Positions 7,869-50,737 of a stretch of DNA of 64,000 bases are shown piece by piece; position 1 is the first letter of the stretch; each line of letters begins with the position of its first letter. The translations under genes were made by a program, and so were the position numbers. The stretch comes from an uncultured Candidatus Melainabacteria bacterium (GTDB lineage: Bacteria > Cyanobacteriota > Vampirovibrionia > Gastranaerophilales > Gastranaerophilaceae): contig CATLFB010000001.1 of the NCBI GenBank assembly GCA_949927415.1, forward strand, positions 310,001-374,000, written 5' to 3'. The notes below the pieces were generated by a model. The model was not told the DNA's origin and did no database searches. It worked only from the letters and a program-made list of their open reading frames with translations.

Positions 7869-7922
7869 ATGCATAGAGAAGACAGTTTTATTACTTGCCC
7901 CCCCCCCCGTCAAATCCGCTAA
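7869..7922 (+). other. Leader reading frame containing the C11 tract (pilin out of frame)
   Basis: An ATG at 7869 is preceded by a strong Shine-Dalgarno (GGAGG at about 7859-7863). As assembled it encodes MHREDSFITCPPPRQIR and stops at 7920-7922. With one C fewer (or two more) in the 7898-7908 tract, the frame runs on through 34 open codons into the pilin frame at 8011, giving a protein of about 310 residues. The leader is therefore probably the true 5-prime end of the pilin gene in a phase-OFF state. Confidence 0.65.
7898..7908 (+). repeat. C11 homopolymer tract, putative phase-variation switch
   Basis: Eleven consecutive C residues on the coding strand, within the leader and 103 bases before the continuous pilin frame. 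Length 10 or 13 would place the leader ATG in frame with the pilin; 11 does not. In a low-GC genome such a run is not expected by chance. This is the only tract of the set that is C, not G, on the coding strand. Confidence 0.8.
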
Positions 7923-8010: not shown

Positions 8011-8802
8011 GTGAAAAAGAGCATTAATTTGTCATTGCGTCAGAGGGCATTTACAATGGCTGAGGTTTTGATAACCCTTGGCATCATCGGGATTGTTGCG
8101 GCACTGACAATTCCCCAGTTGATAAAAAATCATGAGAAGCGGGTTTTGCACACGCAATTTCTCAAGATGTACAGCGATTTGAACAATGCCGAAAAACTTT
8201 TTGAGGCAAAAGAAAACATTACGGTGCATGAATACAGCAAAAATCTTGGCGACCCACAAGCCGGCACAGAAGAAATGGAATCAACATATATGTTGAAACT
8301 TTTTATGCAATATTTTAACGGGCAGGCTGGCGCAACAGGCTCTATGAGTAATACAGAAGAAGGCGAATATAGAAAAGATGTATACAAACGGATGCTCGGA
8401 TACATTCCGGCCGCACTGAACGGATCTAATACATCATCTCAACCCTGCGATGAAAGTATAATTATGAGCGACATTGCAGGAAGATTTTTTGTAATGGACA
8501 ACAACCTGACAGGCGTGGTCGCAAATGCTCCGAACGGTCCTAAAATATGCGTTGACACAAACGGCAAAAAAGGCCCGAATAAATACGGCTATGACTGGTT
8601 TGTATTTACATTTACATCCAAAGGAACGGTTATTCCATACATTGGAAACAGCTTAACATCTTATGGAGCGGATTTGGAAGACCCGTCAACAGAATGTTCT
8701 TATTCAAGAAATTCTGCAACTTACACCTGCGGATATTACGCGCTTTCCGACACTCGTCCTGACGGAGAGGGCGGAACCTACTGGAAAGATTTCCTGAAAT
8801 AA
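8011..8802 (+). CDS. Type IV pilin-like protein, class B (phase-OFF leader)
   Basis: Secreted or surface pilin-like protein with a prepilin peptidase site RA/FTMAEVLITLG (Glu at +5; Ala in place of Gly at -1), one N-terminal hydrophobic helix and a C-terminal globular domain. That domain carries DTNGKKGPNKYGYDWFVF and ends TYWKDFLK, the class B form also seen at 28583 and 46257. The given start is a GTG at 8011 with no Shine-Dalgarno. The better start is the ATG at 7869, separated from this frame by one extra C in the tract. Pilus subunit, pseudopilin or surface adhesin cannot be told apart here. A strong terminator follows at 8841. Confidence 0.8.
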   Translation: MKKSINLSLRQRAFTMAEVLITLGIIGIVAALTIPQLIKNHEKRVLHTQFLKMYSDLNNAEKLFEAKENITVHEYSKNLGDPQAGTEEMESTYMLKLFMQYFNGQAGATGSMSNTEEGEYRKDVYKRMLGYIPAALNGSNTSSQPCDESIIMSDIAGRFFVMDNNLTGVVANAPNGPKICVDTNGKKGPNKYGYDWFVFTFTSKGTVIPYIGNSLTSYGADLEDPSTECSYSRNSATYTCGYYALSDTRPDGEGGTYWKDFLK

Positions 8803-24373: not shown

Positions 24374-25186
24374 TTAATAACTAACTCTAAACGGATAGTC
24401 TTTTGGGATTTTCCAGCCGTTACTCTGAATAAGTGCAGCACAATAATAAGATGCCTTAATATTACATCCTGTGTATGAGTATTTATCAACTCCGCTATAT
24501 AGACTTTCGCTTTTGCCATCCCATGCAAACTTATACGGTTCAAAACCTCTGCCTTTATGATATATAAAATCAGTATTAGTTGTCGATAAAGGGTAATATA
24601 AAAAAACAAACGCACATTTTCCATACGCATTGGATAAAGAACCATACTTCTTTACACATCTATCAGGATCTCCCGTGAAAAATATCCAATCCCGCATATA
24701 ATCTGTCTGTAGAGCCATAAGCCCACTTCCGTCAGCAAAAAAGAATATTGGCTTACCATCTTTATCATACTTAACCTGAACAGTCCTCATATTAGGAGCA
24801 ATATAACGATTCCACCAGATTTCAACTTCTGACGCGCCTTTAACAAGGTTTCCTTCTTCGTCATAAACTATTTTCTGCTTATCCTGATACCATTCTTTCT
24901 TGTCGCCATAGGTAACTTCAGCCATCATGACAGCCTGATTTATTGAAGAATAGAATTTTGCAAGACGCGTTTCTACAACCCTGTTTGCGTTGCTCTGAAT
25001 CAGAGCCGGCAAAGTCATTGCCGCAACTATCCCTATTATACCAAGCGTAATCAAAACTTCTGCTAATGTGAAAGCGCATCTGACTGATGTTACACGATTA
25101 TATTTTTCCGGTACGCACATCAAAAAATGCCGGAAAATATTAATCTTTGCAGCGCTTGAATGGCAAAAACTTTTACCGAATGTCAA
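24374..25186 (-). CDS. Type IV pilin-like protein, class A (phase-OFF leader)
   Basis: Pilin-like protein with CA/FTLAEVLITLGIIGIVAAMT, the prepilin processing site and helix. The globular part has FFADGSGLMALQTDYMRDWIFF and ends IQSNGWKIPKDYPFRVSY (class A). The listed start is a weak TTG at 25186. A well-formed start lies upstream at 25259 (AAAGGAG, 6 bases, ATG), but a G12 tract leaves it one base out of frame; with 11 or 14 G residues the frame is open throughout and gives about 294 residues. The leader before the cleavage site would then be about 60 residues, far longer than usual for prepilins. Confidence 0.8.
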   Translation of the reverse strand: MTFGKSFCHSSAAKINIFRHFLMCVPEKYNRVTSVRCAFTLAEVLITLGIIGIVAAMTLPALIQSNANRVVETRLAKFYSSINQAVMMAEVTYGDKKEWYQDKQKIVYDEEGNLVKGASEVEIWWNRYIAPNMRTVQVKYDKDGKPIFFFADGSGLMALQTDYMRDWIFFTGDPDRCVKKYGSLSNAYGKCAFVFLYYPLSTTNTDFIYHKGRGFEPYKFAWDGKSESLYSGVDKYSYTGCNIKASYYCAALIQSNGWKIPKDYPFRVSY

Positions 25187-25202
25187 AAACCTTGCAGGAG
25201 CG

Positions 25203-25259
25203 TTATTTTCGGGTGCCCCCCCCCCCCGGAAATCCAGTCATAGTGAACATTTTAAACAT
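25203..25259 (-). other. Leader reading frame containing the G12 tract
   Basis: An ATG at 25259 follows AAAGGAG at ideal spacing. As assembled the leader is MFKMFTMTGFPGGGGTRK and stops at 25203-25205. Its first 30 bases are close to the leaders at 29483 and 50672 (Met-X-X-Met repeats, then TGF or EF, then glycines), so it belongs to the same cassette. Confidence 0.7.
25216..25227 (-). repeat. G12 homopolymer tract, putative phase-variation switch
   Basis: Twelve C residues on the plus strand (G12 in the coding sense) inside the leader of the pilin gene at 24374. After the tract the pilin frame is open without a stop (APENNAPARFLTFGKS). Length 11 or 14 would be ON; 12 is OFF. Confidence 0.82.
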
Positions 25260-25343
25260 TTTCATCTCCTTTAAAATTACATTCTTAATATATTATTTGA
25301 ATTCGATTTTTGCTTATCTGATGCCGCAGGAACATATTAAAGT

Positions 25344-27938
25344 CTAAATTTCACAGTCATCACTTACAAAAAGATTCAGCTGCGGAACTTCCAGTTCAAT
25401 ATTTTCAACCTTTTTGCGTGTTGCAAGGTTGTTCGAAAAATCTTTCTGCATTTTGACCATCAAATCCTGCGAACGTCTGATTACAGTATTAGGCAGTCCC
25501 GCCATCTTCGCAACCTGAATACCGTAACTTTTGCTTGCGCCGCCCTGAACTATTTTGCGCAAAAATTCGATTTCTCCGTTTTCTTCGGTCACGGTAATTC
25601 TGTAATTCTTAATTTGCGGATATGAGTTTGTCATTACATTAAGTTCATGATAGTGGGTTGCGAAAATACATCTTGCTTTTATTTTTGTCGCGATATGTTC
25701 AGCAACCGACCAGGCAATTGCAACACCGTCGTAAGTGCTTGTGCCGCGGCCGATTTCATCCAGCAGTATAAAGCTTTTATCTGTTGCCGAATTGAGAATG
25801 TAGGCTGTTTCAATCATTTCAACCATAAATGTAGATTGCCCTAAGGTCAAATCATCTGACGCTCCCACACGTGTGAAAATCTTGTCAACAACGCCTAGTT
25901 TAAGGTAATCTGCCGGAACCCATGAGCCTATTTGCGCAAGCAATACGATTAATGCGTTTTGGCGCATATACGTTGATTTACCTGCCATGTTCGGTCCTGT
26001 CAAAATCATGAATTGAGTTTTGTCAGTTGTGTTGCTCTGAAGTTCAAGGTCGTTTGAAACATACTCGCCAAGCGGAAGAATTTTTTCCAGAACCGGATGG
26101 CGGCCGTTTTTCACAATGAAATCTCCGGAATCATCAATTTCCGGTTTGCAGAAGTTGTTTTCCGCAGCCGTTTGCGCTAATGATGACAATACATCGGCTT
26201 TTGCAATACAGTCTGCTATTTCTCTGATTTTTGAAACCAGATTTTTAGATTTTTCTCTGAAATCAGTGAAGATTTTATATTCAAGTTCTGTTGTTTTGAA
26301 TCTTGCAGACAGAACATCATCTTCATGTTTTTTAAGTTCTTCGGTTATATAGCGTTCAGCGCCTGTGAGGGTTTGTTTGCGGACATAATTTTCCGGAACC
26401 ATATTGCGGTAAGAATTGGTGATTTCGATAAAGTAGCCGAAAACTTTATTTTCGCCGACTTTCAAAGACTTGATGCCGGTTTTTTCGCGTTCTCTTTCTG
26501 CAAAATTAATCATCCACTCTTCGCCGTTGGTCAGCAAATCACGGTAATAATCAAGTTCGCCGGAAAAACCTTCTTTGATAATTCCGCCTTCTTTTATAAC
26601 CATCGGCGCGTCATCTTTGATTAAATTGTTTATTTCTTCAGCAAACGCCGTTATTTCTTCTTCGTAAGCAATTATACTTCTGAACGGGTTGTTTTGCAGT
26701 CCGCCCGAAATCTCTATTAACTCGGGAAGCATTTCCAAAGACGCCTTTAAACTCAAAAAGTCTTTCGGGTTTGCTGAATTGTTACTCAATCGGGTTGCGA
26801 GGCGCTGGATATCGTAGATTTTTTCCAGAACTTCTATTAATGAAACTCGGGTTGAGGCTTTTTCTACAAGTTCGGTTACGGCTCTTTGGCGAAGCATGAT
26901 ATCAGAAACCCTTTTCAGAGGCTGGCAAATCCAGTTTCTCAAAAGTCTTGCGCCCATGTTTGTTTTAGTCTGGTCAATAGCCCAGAGAAGAGATCCGTAT
27001 TTGTTCTTTTCGCGCATTGTCTCGACTAATTCCAGATTCTTTCTTGTTCCGGCGTCGAGAATCATGTATTCGGACAATTCATAGGCTTCTATACGCTCAA
27101 TTTTAGGGACATTTTCTTTCATGCTTTCCCAAACATAAGCAAGAAGCGCACCTGCTGCGCGAAAACCAAGTTTATATTTGTCATACCCGAAAGCCGTCAG
27201 CATACCCGGCGTAAAGACCGCCTTCAGATTTGAATCAGACATAGAATTTTCAAAAACATTTGAAGGGATTTTAGAGCAATTGTATGAATTAACAATTCCT
27301 TCAGGCAAATCGACTTTTTCTTCCGGTACAATTTGGAAAGGCTTAATTTCGCCGCGAATAGAAGGTGCAACGATTTCGGCGGGCGATATTCTTGCAAGTT
27401 CTGACATCAAAAGATTTAACGGCGCCTGCGTAACTTTAAATTCGCCGGTCGAAATATCGGAATAGGCAAATCCGTAAAGGTCGGATTTTTCATCCTTAAA
27501 CATTGCGGCAATATAATTGTTGGCATTTTGTTTCAGAAAATCGCTTTCGGTCAGTGTACCTGATGTTACAATTCTTGTTACACCGCGTTTTACAAGCCCT
27601 TTAGCGAATTTTGGATCTTCAAGCTGGTCGCAGAGTGCAACTTTGATATTTTTCTGAACCAGTTTTTCAAGATAACCGTTTATTGCTTTGTAAGGTATCC
27701 CGGCAAGCGGAATTCTGCCGTATTCGGAACCTGAGTCGCGGCCTGTGAGAGTCAGTTCCAGTTCTTTTGACATTAGAACTGCATCTTCGAAAAAGGTTTC
27801 GTAAAAATCTCCAAGGCGGTATAAAAGCACAGCCCCGGGGTTTTGGCGCTTAATCCGCATGTATTGCTGCATGACCTGCGTCAATTTTTCTATTTCTACT
27901 TCCCATGAATTTATTTGATTGATTTCTGATTTTGACAT
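25344..27938 (-). CDS. mutS: DNA mismatch repair protein MutS
   Basis: Recognises base mismatches and small insertion/deletion loops. The 864-residue protein is complete: the N-terminal mismatch-binding domain has YRLGDFYETFFEDA with the Phe-X-Glu-type motif, the core follows, and the ATPase domain has Walker A LTGPNMAGKSTYMRQ, Walker B FILLDEIGRGTSTYDG and the ATHYHEL motif. MutS is the protein that normally corrects slippage in homopolymers, so an intact copy bears on the stability of the G/C tracts in this window. The 3-prime end lies about 80 bases from the pilin leader at 25259. mutL is not in the window. Confidence 0.97.
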   Translation of the reverse strand: MSKSEINQINSWEVEIEKLTQVMQQYMRIKRQNPGAVLLYRLGDFYETFFEDAVLMSKELELTLTGRDSGSEYGRIPLAGIPYKAINGYLEKLVQKNIKVALCDQLEDPKFAKGLVKRGVTRIVTSGTLTESDFLKQNANNYIAAMFKDEKSDLYGFAYSDISTGEFKVTQAPLNLLMSELARISPAEIVAPSIRGEIKPFQIVPEEKVDLPEGIVNSYNCSKIPSNVFENSMSDSNLKAVFTPGMLTAFGYDKYKLGFRAAGALLAYVWESMKENVPKIERIEAYELSEYMILDAGTRKNLELVETMREKNKYGSLLWAIDQTKTNMGARLLRNWICQPLKRVSDIMLRQRAVTELVEKASTRVSLIEVLEKIYDIQRLATRLSNNSANPKDFLSLKASLEMLPELIEISGGLQNNPFRSIIAYEEEITAFAEEINNLIKDDAPMVIKEGGIIKEGFSGELDYYRDLLTNGEEWMINFAEREREKTGIKSLKVGENKVFGYFIEITNSYRNMVPENYVRKQTLTGAERYITEELKKHEDDVLSARFKTTELEYKIFTDFREKSKNLVSKIREIADCIAKADVLSSLAQTAAENNFCKPEIDDSGDFIVKNGRHPVLEKILPLGEYVSNDLELQSNTTDKTQFMILTGPNMAGKSTYMRQNALIVLLAQIGSWVPADYLKLGVVDKIFTRVGASDDLTLGQSTFMVEMIETAYILNSATDKSFILLDEIGRGTSTYDGVAIAWSVAEHIATKIKARCIFATHYHELNVMTNSYPQIKNYRITVTEENGEIEFLRKIVQGGASKSYGIQVAKMAGLPNTVIRRSQDLMVKMQKDFSNNLATRKKVENIELEVPQLNLFVSDDCEI

Positions 27939-28582: not shown

Positions 28583-29461
28583 CTATTTTGGCAAGTTTTT
28601 AAAATAATCTTTGTCGGTCAATGCGTTGTATGTACATCCTGCACCGTTCATACTGCCGGATGAAGAAGGTGAACAGTATGCAGCGGTTGAACTGTAATAA
28701 TAGGAATCAGGAACTCCCATTGGAAGAAGTTTTCCTTTTTCATCAATCTGAAATATGAAAAGGTCTTGCCCGAGCCTGTTGGGATTTTTGTTGTAGCCGT
28801 TAACATCAATTGAGATAAACAAAAATCTGCCGTTATCTTCCAGCAGAACCAAACTGCCGTCATTAAGCACGAACTGTCCGTCATCAAAGAAATTTAAGTT
28901 TATAGAATGACCGTTCAGTGTTTTGTATGTTTAAGAGTTGTTTTCGGTTGTTCCGATATTAACATAGTTTGGAATGCAAGTTTTTTTAATTGCTTCTGCT
29001 GAAGTTTCGGCACCTTCGCCGCAATCGCGTGCTATTTTGAAATATTTTATGAGTTTAGATTTTAATTGTAATTTTGAGCTGCTTAGCATTATGCGCTCGC
29101 CTGTTTCGGCTTGATACATATCAAGCGCCTGACTTATCAGAGAATACGACCTTTTCAAGCCTGCTTCCAGTTGTTTGTTGCGGCTATTGTTGATTACGGC
29201 AGGCAACGTCATGGCAGCAACTATTCCGATTACCCCAAGCGTAATAAGAACTTCCGCCAGAGTAAATGCAAGACGGCGATTGTTTAGAATATTGTCTGCG
29301 GCTGCAGGATTGAGTGCTAATGCAAACCTGTTTTTTAAAGTAGCATTAAGTTTTTCGTTTTTAAAAAAATATTTTTGTGAATCGGAGGCGTTTTTAAAAT
29401 AATTTCTGTAAAACCCTTTAAAGATGAGTTCAGCGACTGCCCCCCCCCCCCGCAAATTCAA
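28583..29461 (-). pseudogene. Type IV pilin-like gene, class B, with tract-OFF leader and internal stop
   Basis: The N-terminal part (28931-29461) has LA/FTLAEVLITLGVIGIVAAMT. An in-frame TAA at 28931-28933 ends it after GTTENNS. The same frame continues (YKTLNGHSINLNFFDDG) to 28583, with the class B features IDVNGYNKNPNRLGQDLFIF and DYFKNLPK. The upstream ATG leader at 29483 is one base out of frame because of G12. The gene thus has two lesions: a reversible-looking tract and a point nonsense mutation. The downstream sequence remains intact, so the stop seems recent, or may be an assembly error. Without both lesions the product would be about 299 residues. Confidence 0.75.
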
Positions 29462-46256: not shown

Positions 46257-47033
46257 CTACCATGGAAGATTTTTCCAGTAGGATTTGGAATTATCTTCCG
46301 GCGAAACATCGTTTACTGCATACCATGCACATCCCATTCCGTTTAGAAGCTGGGTTGAATTTTTATTACAGGGAAAGCCGGCTAAATGCACATTTGTTTC
46401 ATTTTCTAATTCCTCGTCAGTATATCTTCGGGATTCTTTTAAGGGTTTTATCTGGTCTGTAGAATCCATCACCCGAAACTCAAATATATCAAAACCAAGC
46501 CTGTTTGGTTTTGAATAAGGCCCGTTTGTATCAACATAAATTCGAATGTGATTCATGTTTATATGAATCCCTACACTGCTCCCGTCAGGCAAAACTTTCA
46601 CGGCCGTCGGAGCATCCTTACCGATATTTGAAGTAATTGTTTTTGTTTTAGTATAATTCGTCATCGGATACATTGATTTTTCATAAGTTTTCATGATTTT
46701 CAGATTATTATAGAATTCATCAATGAAACGCTTTGCCTCCGGGTACTCTACCCCGTTATAAGTAGCAAAAGCAGCACGAACATTTGAAACGCCAAGCGAG
46801 GCTTTTGTCATTAGATAGGCGTTAGAAATATTTGCATAAGATTTCTTGAGACCGGTCTGAAGAACTTTAGCCTGATAATTTTTTATAAGTTGAGGAATTG
46901 TCATCGAGGCAACGATTCCGATAATGCCGAGAGTAATTAAAACTTCCGCTAACGTAAACCCTAAAACCCTTGAAAGGAGCTTATTTTCGGGTCCCCCCTC
47001 CCCCGTAAATTCAGTCATACCGTACGTTTTCAT
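46257..47033 (-). CDS. Type IV pilin-like protein, class B, leader locked in frame
   Basis: A 258-residue pilin-like protein. The ATG at 47033 follows AAGGAG at 6 bases. The leader MKTYGMTEFTGEGGPENK matches the phase-variable leaders elsewhere, but its G run is broken by an A (G5-A-G6) and is in frame with the pilin. Gly at -1 and Glu at +5 are canonical (LG/FTLAEVLITLG). The globular part contains YVDTNGPYSKPNRLGFDIFE and ends SYWKNLPW (class B). This is the only member of the tract group expected to be constitutively in frame, and it shows what the ON form of the others looks like. Confidence 0.9.
   Translation of the reverse strand: MKTYGMTEFTGEGGPENKLLSRVLGFTLAEVLITLGIIGIVASMTIPQLIKNYQAKVLQTGLKKSYANISNAYLMTKASLGVSNVRAAFATYNGVEYPEAKRFIDEFYNNLKIMKTYEKSMYPMTNYTKTKTITSNIGKDAPTAVKVLPDGSSVGIHINMNHIRIYVDTNGPYSKPNRLGFDIFEFRVMDSTDQIKPLKESRRYTDEELENETNVHLAGFPCNKNSTQLLNGMGCAWYAVNDVSPEDNSKSYWKNLPW
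46993..47004 (-). repeat. Interrupted G tract (G5-A-G6), stabilised leader
   Basis: The plus strand reads C6-T-C5. The position is equivalent to the pure G12 tracts at 25216, 29440 and 50629. The single interruption should suppress slippage and the reading frame is ON. Confidence 0.8.
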
Positions 47034-47108: not shown

Positions 47109-47129
47109 AAAGCCTCTTATCGAGGCTTT
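47109..47129 (-). terminator. Terminator overlapping the end of the M16 peptidase gene
   Basis: Stem AAAGCCTC / GAGGCTTT with a 5-base loop; the TAA stop of the peptidase gene is inside the hairpin. On the minus strand a TTTTTAATATT tail follows. Confidence 0.8.
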
Positions 47130-49711
47130 ACTACAGAATATACATAATTATTTGTGAAATATTTGTTTGCGGTTTCAATGATATCCGCTTCGGTTACGGA
47201 ATTTATGAGTTTGATGTATTCGTCCCTGAACTCATATCCTCGCCCGCTTGCTTCAAACCAGCCGAGATTTGAGGCTTTGTCAAGATTGGTTTCAAGCGAA
47301 ATTATGTAGTTTCCGATAAGTTTGTCTTTGGCTTCTTTGAGTTCTTTGCTGCCGACAAATTCCTTTTTCAGCCGGAAAACTTCTTCTAAAAGCTTTGTTT
47401 TGGCACAATCGAGATTTTCGGGATTTGTGCCGATGTAGACTACAAAAGCGCCTTTCAAAATATTCGGGCCGTAGCTTGAGCCGAGTTGATAGGCAAGACC
47501 TTCCTGATCGCGAAGATTCTTGAACAGTCTTGAACTCATGCCGGTTCCGAGCAGTGAATCTATGACCTGCAACGCGGCATAATCTTTTTTGTTCAAGACA
47601 CCCGGCGCCTGCCAGGCGATAAAAATCCAGTCGGTTTTGGTTTCCGGCATAATTTTCACGGCTTGCTTTTGAGAAGTCAGTCTGCCGATTCTGTTGGAAT
47701 AGAGATTATAATCAAATTTTTCGCCATTTTTACCTGAAAATATTTTTGTGAAATCTTTTATAACTTTTTCGTTGTCAACGTTGCCGTTAATTGAAATCAC
47801 GACATTTTGCGGGGCGAAAATTTTGCCGTAATAATCCGCCAAATCCTGATGGGTAATTTTCGGATAAGTTTTTTCAAAAATCTTGCTCGTATACGAATAC
47901 GGAGAACCTTCAAAAATTAAGTCTTTGTAGTTTTCGATTGCAACCTGCAGCGGGATATCGCGGTTGCGCTTAATGGCGTTCAGTTTGTCGCTTTTTGCTT
48001 TTTCAATTTCGTAATCGTCAAAGGTTGCGTTGTTTAAAACTTCATTCAAGATTTCGATAGTTTTGTCGTACTCGGGTTTTGTTGTCAAAACATCAACCGT
48101 AAATGCATCTGCCCTTACTGCAGGTTCGATTTTAATTCCGTTATCCTCAAGAACTCTTGCAAGTTCGGCAGAAGAATATTTCCGCGTGCCTTTCATCATA
48201 ACATCTGCCGTCAAAACAGATGTTCCGGGGATTTTGTCAAGGAAAGTTCCGCCTTTTGCAAGAATGCTTACGGCAATAATTTCGTTAACATCATTTGGCG
48301 TAATCAGCAAATCCGCACCGTTTGAAAGTTTGTATTTTTTTGTTTGGGAATTTTCACTGACAAGTTTTGCGGGTGCTGCTTCTTTTGCAGGAGTTTTTGA
48401 AGATATTTCAACTTCTTTTGAAGATTCCGGCAGAACTATTGAAATCGCAGACTTTTCAACTCCGAGATATTTAACTGCCATGCGCTTTACATCCTCCGCC
48501 GTCACCTTTTTAATATTTTCAAGATAATTTTTGTAGAATCTTATATCGTTTGCAGTAACCATTGTGTAGCCGATTTCCTGCGCTATATTTGAAATAGATT
48601 CACGTGCATAATATGTGTCGCGCTCGATTATATTTTTTGCCAAATCAAGCTGGGAAGTTGTGACGCCGTTTTTTTGAATATTTTTTATCTCTTCAAAAAT
48701 TGCATCTTCAAGCTTCTTTTCGTTACCCGGCGTGAAGTTAGCCGACACATAGAAAATTCCGTCATCCCTGAATCCGGAATTTGACGCACCTATTGAAAAC
48801 GCAAGCTGTTTAGAATCTTTTATATTCCTATAAAAAACAGACGAACGGCCATCTCCCAGAATCGTCGATAAAACATCCAACGCATAAGAATCGTTGTTTG
48901 TGATTTTAACACCGCGAAATCCTATTAGCATATAACCCGATTGAGCGGGAAGATACGCTGTTTTTCGCGCTTGTTTTACAAGAGGTTTTTCTGATTCAAA
49001 ATCTTCTTTCAAAACCTTTTTGTAATCGCATTTAAAATCTTTTTTAACAAGTTCAAGCGCATGTTCACTATCAACATCCCCGACGATTACTGTCACCATG
49101 TTTGATGGGACATAAAACTGATTGTAGTAGTTCATAATTTCATCGCGCTGGATTGTGCTTATGATATCGCGCGTGCCGATAACTTTGCGCTTGTATGGGT
49201 GGTTTGTGTAAAGCATTGAAATCAGGTTTTCATACACAACATTTCTGGGAGAAGTTTCGTCCTTTGAAATTTCTTCAATAACGACTTTTCTTTCTTTTTC
49301 AAGCTGCTGGCGCGGAACAAGCGGGTTCAGAAGCATATCCGCATGCAATTCCATTGCAAGATCAAAGTAATTGGATGGAATTGTTATGTAATAATGCGTG
49401 AAATCTTTGCTTGTTGCGGCGTTTGTAATTGCGCCTTTTGTTTCGAGAATTTTGTCAAATTCGCCGGGGGCATGGTTTTTAGAGCCTTTAAAGAAAAGAT
49501 GCTCAAGAAAATGCGAAACGCCGTTGTTTTTATCGTTTTCGTTTATTGAGCCTGTGCGAATCCATGTATCTACAGTTACAATCGGATTTGAGCGAACTTC
49601 TTTAATAATCACCGTCTGCCCGTTTTCGAGATTATAAACTGCGGCTTCGTTTGCAAAAACACCGCTTCCAATAACAAATGCAATGAAAATAAATAAGATT
49701 TTTTTCATCAT
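47117..49711 (-). CDS. Secreted M16-family zinc metallopeptidase (two tandem halves)
   Basis: An 864-residue exported protease-like protein. The signal peptide KKILFIFIAFVIGSGVFA is followed by an active M16 unit with the inverted zinc motif HFLEHLFFKG (HxxEH) near residue 66 and a distal Glu in the following helices, then a second M16-like half from about residue 440 (KYKLSNGADLLITPNDVNEI) that lacks HxxEH, as in M16 proteins with one active and one inactive half. Such proteins clear peptides in the periplasm or process outer-membrane cargo. GAGGGGAT precedes the ATG; two adjacent Met codons are possible starts. Confidence 0.92.
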   Translation of the reverse strand: MMKKILFIFIAFVIGSGVFANEAAVYNLENGQTVIIKEVRSNPIVTVDTWIRTGSINENDKNNGVSHFLEHLFFKGSKNHAPGEFDKILETKGAITNAATSKDFTHYYITIPSNYFDLAMELHADMLLNPLVPRQQLEKERKVVIEEISKDETSPRNVVYENLISMLYTNHPYKRKVIGTRDIISTIQRDEIMNYYNQFYVPSNMVTVIVGDVDSEHALELVKKDFKCDYKKVLKEDFESEKPLVKQARKTAYLPAQSGYMLIGFRGVKITNNDSYALDVLSTILGDGRSSVFYRNIKDSKQLAFSIGASNSGFRDDGIFYVSANFTPGNEKKLEDAIFEEIKNIQKNGVTTSQLDLAKNIIERDTYYARESISNIAQEIGYTMVTANDIRFYKNYLENIKKVTAEDVKRMAVKYLGVEKSAISIVLPESSKEVEISSKTPAKEAAPAKLVSENSQTKKYKLSNGADLLITPNDVNEIIAVSILAKGGTFLDKIPGTSVLTADVMMKGTRKYSSAELARVLEDNGIKIEPAVRADAFTVDVLTTKPEYDKTIEILNEVLNNATFDDYEIEKAKSDKLNAIKRNRDIPLQVAIENYKDLIFEGSPYSYTSKIFEKTYPKITHQDLADYYGKIFAPQNVVISINGNVDNEKVIKDFTKIFSGKNGEKFDYNLYSNRIGRLTSQKQAVKIMPETKTDWIFIAWQAPGVLNKKDYAALQVIDSLLGTGMSSRLFKNLRDQEGLAYQLGSSYGPNILKGAFVVYIGTNPENLDCAKTKLLEEVFRLKKEFVGSKELKEAKDKLIGNYIISLETNLDKASNLGWFEASGRGYEFRDEYIKLINSVTEADIIETANKYFTNNYVYSVVKPR

Positions 49712-49828: not shown

Positions 49829-50644
49829 TTACCAAGGATAATCTTTAGGAAACTTCCAGTTGTTATATTGTAAAAGCTTTGCACAATATGGTGCACTCGG
49901 GTTTCCTTTACGGCATCCGTAACGAGAATGGGTTATCAACTTTTCGTACGTCCCGTCCCAATTGAAAGCATAAGGCTCTACAGTGGTCTTACGATTCAAT
50001 GAGCGGTGAATAACGTTCCCGTCCTCATCCATACCGTCAATTTTATTAAACTGAAAAGCAAAAGAATTTCTTAAGCCCGGCTCATATTTTCCGTTTATAT
50101 AATAGACAATATCCCCGCCGTTTTGATCATATCTAAAAATAAACATCCCGCCTGATGTAAGGTAAACACAGACTTTATTCTCAATACAGTTGTCATAACG
50201 ATTATATTTCAGATGTGGCAGAAAATATTTGTTTAGAAATTCAAGATTTTCCTCATAAGTTAAATCTTTACGCTCACCCATCCAGTTTTCGACATCTCCG
50301 TATTCAACAATAGCAAATTGAACAGCATTATTAATCGTATTGTAAAATTTGTGAACCTTAGCGGCTGCCGCTTCTTTCTGCGCATTTCCAATGACCGACG
50401 GAAGAGTCATCGCAGCAACTATTCCGATGATTCCGAGTGTAATCAGAACTTCCGCCAAAGTAAATGCGTGCAAATATTTCCCTGCCGGATTATTTCCGTA
50501 CCCAATCCTTTTACTTTTAGCAAACGTAAATTCCTGCCTGTGATTATTCGAAAAACCACCGGCAAAATTCGCATTTTTCACTGATGCAAAACAGTTAAAA
50601 AACCCTTTAAGAGAGCAGTTACCGGACGCCCCCCCCCCCCGCAA
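49829..50644 (-). CDS. Type IV pilin-like protein, class A (phase-OFF leader)
   Basis: Pilin-like protein with HA/FTLAEVLITLGIIGIVAAMT. The globular domain has NGGDIVYYINGKYEPGLRNS and ends LQYNNWKFPKDYPW (class A). The listed start is a TTG within the tract region. The real start is probably the ATG at 50672, after TAAGGAG and a TTGCAT/TATAAT promoter, but G12 leaves it one base out of frame; 11 or 14 G residues would give about 280 residues. The stretch QEFTFAK ahead of the cleavage site resembles a decayed second copy of FTLAE. Confidence 0.8.
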   Translation of the reverse strand: MRGGGASGNCSLKGFFNCFASVKNANFAGGFSNNHRQEFTFAKSKRIGYGNNPAGKYLHAFTLAEVLITLGIIGIVAAMTLPSVIGNAQKEAAAAKVHKFYNTINNAVQFAIVEYGDVENWMGERKDLTYEENLEFLNKYFLPHLKYNRYDNCIENKVCVYLTSGGMFIFRYDQNGGDIVYYINGKYEPGLRNSFAFQFNKIDGMDEDGNVIHRSLNRKTTVEPYAFNWDGTYEKLITHSRYGCRKGNPSAPYCAKLLQYNNWKFPKDYPW

Positions 50645-50672
50645 ATTCAGTCATAGTCATCATTTCAGACAT
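50619..50672 (-). other. Leader reading frame containing the G12 tract
   Basis: Leader MSEMMTMTEFAGGGGVR from the ATG at 50672 with TAAGGAG at 5 bases; it stops at 50619-50621. The sequence MTEFAGGGG matches the locked leader at 47033 (MTEFTGEGG) and the leader at 29483 (MIEFAGGGG). Confidence 0.7.
50629..50640 (-). repeat. G12 homopolymer tract, putative phase-variation switch
   Basis: Twelve C residues on the plus strand (G12 coding) in the leader of the pilin gene at 49829. Length 11 or 14 would be ON. Confidence 0.82.
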
Positions 50673-50708
50673 CCAAGCTCCTTAATTCATTTAACTCTGT
50701 ACATATAA

Positions 50709-50737
50709 ATTATAAATTATTTTTCAAAAAAATGCAA
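50709..50737 (-). promoter_or_regulatory. Promoter of the G12-tract pilin gene
   Basis: On the minus strand, TTGCAT (50737-50732), 17-base spacer, TATAAT (50714-50709), 37 bases before the leader ATG at 50672. A near-consensus promoter shows that the leader, with its tract, is transcribed. Confidence 0.65.

Follow-up and report, generated by a model that had tools for sequence, protein, structure and literature searches.

The G12 tract in front of the gene at position 49829 is best read as a slippage switch of one base, placed where a type IV prepilin-like gene begins; the genome of this uncultured Candidatus Melainabacteria bacterium has dozens of genes with such a tract. With a probability of about 0.58, the tract would be a slippage switch that probably acts by phase variation of the DNA, the ON state being counter-selected. 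The reading frames, the repeated architecture, a rule that places most tracts one base above the in-frame length, the purity of the tracts, purifying selection on the pilins, and the occurrence of near-identical genes in both the ON and the OFF state are all features of the sequences compared. Positions given below are those of the window, that is, the whole stretch of 64,000 nucleotides that was analysed.

The leader, the tract and the prepilin-like gene

The tract is an exact run of twelve G on the minus strand (50640–50629), as the earlier note had stated. Runs of at least eight G give 19 overlapping matches in the window, against 0.24 expected from 100 shuffles. The tract begins 32 nt further on from a leader ATG (50672–50670, minus strand), which is preceded by the Shine-Dalgarno sequence TAAGGAG (50678–50684, with GGAG from 50681) and by a perfect TATAAT as the −10 element (50709–50714). 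The candidate −35 element, TTGCAT (50732–50737), is separated from it by a spacer of 17 nt (site 50737–50709, minus strand) and is weak, matching TTGACA at three of six bases; a promoter scan with a minimum of 4/6 at −35 does not list this site. The near-consensus promoter proposed earlier is therefore borne out for the −10 element, which is enriched across the copies (a perfect TATAAT within 80 nt upstream of 59 of the 95 scored copies, versus 12.6 expected), and not for the −35 element.

As assembled, translation of the ATG frame gives a leader ORF of 17 codons and a stop (MSEMMTMTEFAGGGGVR; 50619–50672, minus strand). The prepilin coding part, recognised by its translation and profile matches, occupies 49829–50628 of the same strand in the +1 frame relative to the leader. 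Among tract lengths from 10 to 14, only 11 or 14 G join the ATG to the prepilin, with a product of 280/281 amino acids. The TTG at 50644 is given as the pilin start in the ORF list because the open frame happens to run through the tract. Taken together, the ATG, the Shine-Dalgarno sequence, the stop after 17 residues and the fusion at 11 or 14 G lend good sequence support to the earlier claim of a frame switch within a translated leader that is OFF by one base. The length of a pure simple repeat sets the frame here, as is characteristic of slipped-strand phase-variable genes.

The product encoded at 49829 passes the cut-offs of PF07963 (22.2 bits versus 21.2), PF20318 (DUF6613; 46.3 versus 24.3) and TIGR02532 (19.5 versus 16.3). 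The prepilin cleavage/methylation motif matched by PF07963 lies at 50405–50470 (minus strand), residues 59–80 of the ORF 49829–50644. By this N-terminal motif the predicted protein is type IV prepilin-like; the equivalog models run on it gave no match over cut-off and do not assign it to the pilin or the pseudopilin class. An LPXTG sorting signal was sought near the C terminus, which ends in ...LLQYNNWKFPKDYPW, and is absent. The next gene downstream (47117–49711) starts with a signal-like peptide and contains, by eye, an HFLEH motif, which we take to resemble that of M16 peptidases.

Copies in the window and in related genomes

The genome of this bacterium (G000; 2.18 Mb, 22 contigs) contains 64 runs of at least nine G or C, most of them before prepilins, and 78 matches to the prepilin motif. 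A leader pattern allowing up to three mismatches has 39 matches in it, whereas the reversed control pattern has one. The tract is pure in 38 of these 39 matches, and the sole interrupted one (46993–47004) is in frame.

This interrupted tract (GGGGGAGGGGGG, minus strand) belongs to a paralogue with the pilin 46257–47033, is in frame as assembled, and constitutes, judged from its sequence, a natural locked-ON control. Three further copies in the window are one base above the ON length by frame scoring. A G12 tract at 29440–29451 (minus strand) with a weak Shine-Dalgarno sequence precedes the prepilin 28931–29461, and another at 25216–25227 (minus strand) precedes the prepilin 24374–25186 just 3' of mutS. 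The third is a C11 tract at 7898–7908 (plus strand), in frame at C10 or C13; its leader starts with the ATG at 7869 and precedes the prepilin 8011–8802. To call the copy before 49829 the cleanest one is arguable, given the C11 copy, the two other G12 copies and the interrupted in-frame copy.

The mutS gene and the G12-tract pilin directly 3' of it together span 24374–27938, and a leader tract in genome G012 (L124) also adjoins mutS. Loss of mismatch repair was considered as a cause and rejected, mutS1 and mutL both being present.

Of 40 genomes, 17 have the leader together with a run of nine G; 12 of these are among the 14 genomes of the genus, the own one included, and the other 5 are among the 26 genomes outside it. 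The matching contigs are Candidatus Gastranaerophilales MAGs. None of the 27 pattern matches inspected outside Gastranaerophilales has both a Shine-Dalgarno sequence and a pilin, and the two matches in viral contigs have neither leader nor pilin. A comparison of five leader loci with Rfam left the leader unmatched, only a tRNA exceeding its gathering score. The set of loci comprises 30 leader matches and further places drawn from 95, with three regions of genome G019 left out.

Several observations concern individual loci. By hand count, a G/C tract is no more than 250 bases away from 9 of the 44 contig ends of the own genome (contigs C2, C5, C7, C10, C16, C17 and C18), probably because the repeated leaders break the assembly. 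One run of 18 G in this genome (L040) has no leader or pilin nearby. At L045, L112, L145 and L148 more than 200 residues separate the tract from the prepilin motif, which is unusually long for a prepilin leader. Tracts that looked like orphans were considered as decayed copies; this was rejected, since for six of them (L037, L059, L075, L077, L084 and window position 7898) the opposite strand encodes a pilin, and five of these could be scored as leaders with a C tract.

Resting length of the tracts

Each copy was scored from its start codon, tract length and pilin frame. The filtered set required a tract of at least nine bases, a Shine-Dalgarno score of at least 4 and a pilin motif; L105 of genome G019 and the G020 copy, which have no reliable start, were left out of scoring. 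Over the 12 genomes of the genus, G and C tracts together, 74 of 89 copies are one base above the in-frame length, 11 are in frame and 4 are in another state. For G tracts the counts are 69, 11 and 4 with the Shine-Dalgarno filter (n=84), and 74, 11 and 4 without it (n=89). All five C-tract copies in the genus are off by +1. In the own genome no scored G-tract copy (0/30) is in frame, and 7 of the 11 in-frame copies of the genus are one G below the usual 12. The state described in the earlier note as OFF by one base is hence the rule in the genus, a point which that note overlooked, and no snapshot of a single locus.

The rule holds for resting tracts of 10, 11, 12 or 13 bases. Where G or C tracts are in frame at 11 or 14, 58 of 66 have length 12, seven have 11 and one has 13; where they are in frame at 10 or 13, eight of nine have length 11 and one has 12; and where they are in frame at 9 or 12, seven of 14 have length 13, four have 12, two have 11 and one has 10. 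Since the resting length shifts with the class of ON length, tract length follows frame. A fixed-length attractor, with all tracts drifting to 12, was rejected, because ON-10 and ON-12 copies are mostly at 11 or 13 (Fisher p ~1e-8, a value which, like the binomial ones, overstates independence as copies within one genome are related). Tracts with boundary substitutions likewise hold the frame and do not revert to the common length. Every scored tract in the genus has at least 10 bases, in searches that required at least nine G and so under-sampled shorter tracts.

Of the 69 resting G copies, 61 have a stop within four codons past the tract when read in the resting frame, and three when read in the third frame; the five C-tract leaders likewise all close in the resting frame, after 17 or 18 residues. 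Read from the sequences, the OFF state is a resting frame that is maintained and soon reaches a stop, and not a random snapshot. Its uniformity, one base too long, suggests that it is kept on purpose.

The pilins themselves are conserved. For the mature part, 11 of 13 pairings gave a usable dN/dS ratio; the values are 0.06–0.41, synonymous change being near saturation in many. By these estimates the pilin bodies are under purifying selection, and the genes therefore appear to be used despite their OFF assembly. L133, which has G12 and is in frame, and L095, which has G13 and is out of frame, come from different species; 10 of their 1501 aligned columns differ, and half of these lie in and beside the tract. 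Related copies of genomes G004 and G007, with 93–96% identity, nearly all retain G12. Tract state differs between L133 and L095, yet 74 of 89 copies share one state. A dead copy was seen in G007 (L146), where the tract is interrupted as G9-T-GG and the pilin frame is broken soon after.

One resting state in so many copies means that random ON/OFF drift is not seen, and slippage of the RNA polymerase or of the ribosome becomes a rival. Programmed RNA polymerase slippage on the run of 10–13 bases would yield some transcripts one base shorter, and with them a steady low level of pilin from each copy. Known transcriptional slippage genes, such as Thermus dnaX and those of IS elements, mostly have A/T runs, whereas the runs here are of G or C. 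They share with the present copies a frame offset at a homopolymer that is conserved across homologues, the mark of a programmed transcriptional slippage gene. This rival accounts more directly for the constancy of a resting frame that tracks the ON length. It also agrees with the pure tracts of all leader matches but one in the own genome, with a tract minimum of 10 bases, which is about the length of the RNA-DNA hybrid, with the conservation of pilins assembled out of frame, and with the stop that closes the resting frame far more often than the third. Against it stand C-tract copies that behave like G-tract copies, the 11 of 89 copies that are in frame in the DNA, and the different DNA states of the near-identical pair L133/L095. 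We consider RNA slippage an unlikely explanation on balance, albeit a serious one.

Programmed +1 ribosomal frameshifting on the homopolymer, aided by a stop a few codons downstream, could also produce a constant +1 offset with a nearby zero-frame stop, and low-level frameshifting on a G run is described for herpesvirus thymidine kinase (PMC5009743). A ribosomal site would not need 10–13 identical bases, however, and in genome G019 (genus g7) all seven copies with a reliable start are at G10 with an ON length of 8 or 11, which is the other off frame. In addition, the leader that carries the tract in genome G023 is separate from the pilin. Ribosomal frameshifting is made less likely by the length and purity of the tracts and by the reversed offset of G019, and we regard it as improbable.

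An artefact of assembly or sequencing, or a set of decaying pseudogenes, hardly deserves credence. Homopolymer calls are error-prone, a tract stands at the end of several contigs in the own genome, and tract lengths in database entries of Bifidobacterium breve disagree with the population (PMC9187656). However, the rule is common to 12 genomes, several of them MAGs made with different assemblers judging by their contig names; the called length follows the frame; and decaying genes would not match the purifying selection on the pilins.

The reading that we prefer is replication slippage in the DNA with the ON state selected against, because it explains the in-frame alleles, the C-tract copies and the resting rule together. 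A short leader, consisting of a promoter, a Shine-Dalgarno sequence, an ATG and about ten codons, would lead up to the homopolymer. With a tract of resting length, translation would end at a stop a few codons past it and give no pilin, while loss of one base would join the leader to the prepilin. The base would be lost by slippage during DNA replication, i.e. by phase variation. ON cells would be few and as a rule selected against, which would leave the tracts one step above ON, and pilin expression may be bet-hedged in this way. DNA slippage is favoured because G and C tracts obey the same rule, as the strand symmetry of replication slippage would predict, and switching at the DNA level is supported by the different states of L133 and L095 and by the in-frame copies that are one G short. 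One dominant frame counts against free slippage, which is expected to spread over three frames. The G12 tracts kept at 93–96% identity, the presence of mutS1 and mutL, and the lack of in-frame copies in the own genome likewise count against DNA phase variation.

Related switches and the leader variant of a sister genus

Slipped-strand contingency genes of Neisseria, Campylobacter and Haemophilus have a homopolymer in the start of the coding region and are present as many surface genes per genome, and the copies described here resemble them in both respects. We know of no shared offset among the resting lengths of those contingency genes, whereas here most copies of the genus share a single one.

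A closer likeness is found in B. breve UCC2003, another gut commensal, whose sortase-dependent pilus genes bbr_0113 and bbr_1889 carry G tracts (PMC9187656). As described there, a short start ORF is followed by G10-12 and by a pilin ORF in another frame, and the tract length decides the fusion and hence pilus assembly; mixed lengths were found by maximum-depth sequencing, and the ON state was enriched in mice (PMC9187656). B. breve has one or two clusters per genome with sortase/LPXTG pilins, in contrast to the dozens of prepilins with an N-methylation motif found here (PMC9187656). The present tracts also differ from those of B. breve in being of G or C, in resting uniformly one base above ON and in having a leader variant in a sister genus. 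Heterogeneity was measured in B. breve (PMC9187656); the tract lengths given here are those of the assemblies. A search for literature on phase variation in Gastranaerophilales or on these tracts found none, most subscription journals being outside its coverage.

In the sister genus (genome G023) the tract has a different setting. All 26 scored leaders (L176–L196 region), counted as copies with an ATG 29 bases before the tract, precede a pilin that starts from a separate ATG, at +138 to +151. The assembled length is 11 G in 23 of the 26, and at this length the leader stops at +11 or +17; at 12 G it would extend to +61 to +100, adjoining or entering a hairpin. The hairpin starts at +66 to +70 in 24 of 26 copies, and CCTCC is found at +39 in all of them. 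The tail of the hairpin is U-rich and often imperfect, so that its reading as a terminator is guesswork. Possibly this genome has an attenuator controlled by slippage: whether a ribosome on the leader gets as far as the hairpin would depend on the frame.

Leader-peptide attenuation could be extended to all copies, with the short leader ORF regulating through slow Gly codons or a hairpin that hides the ribosome site, and with the frame offset secondary. The consistent architecture of the G023 leaders fits this explanation, as does a complementarity of the Shine-Dalgarno sequence to the region after the tract that exceeds letter shuffles. No covariation is seen, though: with the partners permuted, the observed value is attained in 18 of 300 shuffles for the own genome and in 194 of 300 for the other genomes. 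Moreover, several copies of the window genus have 8–20 residues from tract to prepilin motif, which leaves no room for a separate start, and C-tract leaders encode Pro, so that Gly codons are not the point. Attenuation as a general explanation is thus very improbable. A hairpin sequestering the Shine-Dalgarno sequence was rejected, since the complementarity is real but no covariation is seen and single folds are inconsistent, and Gly-codon sensing or an RNA quadruplex was rejected because the Pro-codon leaders obey the same rule.

More tentatively, and below even odds, we speculate that a 'one base over' latch may act across the genome. Selection would hold dozens of prepilins exactly one base above the in-frame length, to be expressed only via the loss of a single base, either in RNA or in rare cells. 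The sister genus would have made an attenuator of the tract, with slippage setting the frame and the frame determining if a ribosome on the leader gets to the hairpin before the pilin.

The G023 leaders may represent a new coupling of tract length to the transcription or translation of a separate gene. The resting rule makes it testable whether homopolymer switches are passive or are held by selection at a set distance from ON. Should the tracts be phase-variable, a single family of surface proteins would be served by a large set of slippage switches in these gut bacteria, which are related to cyanobacteria and have been little studied.
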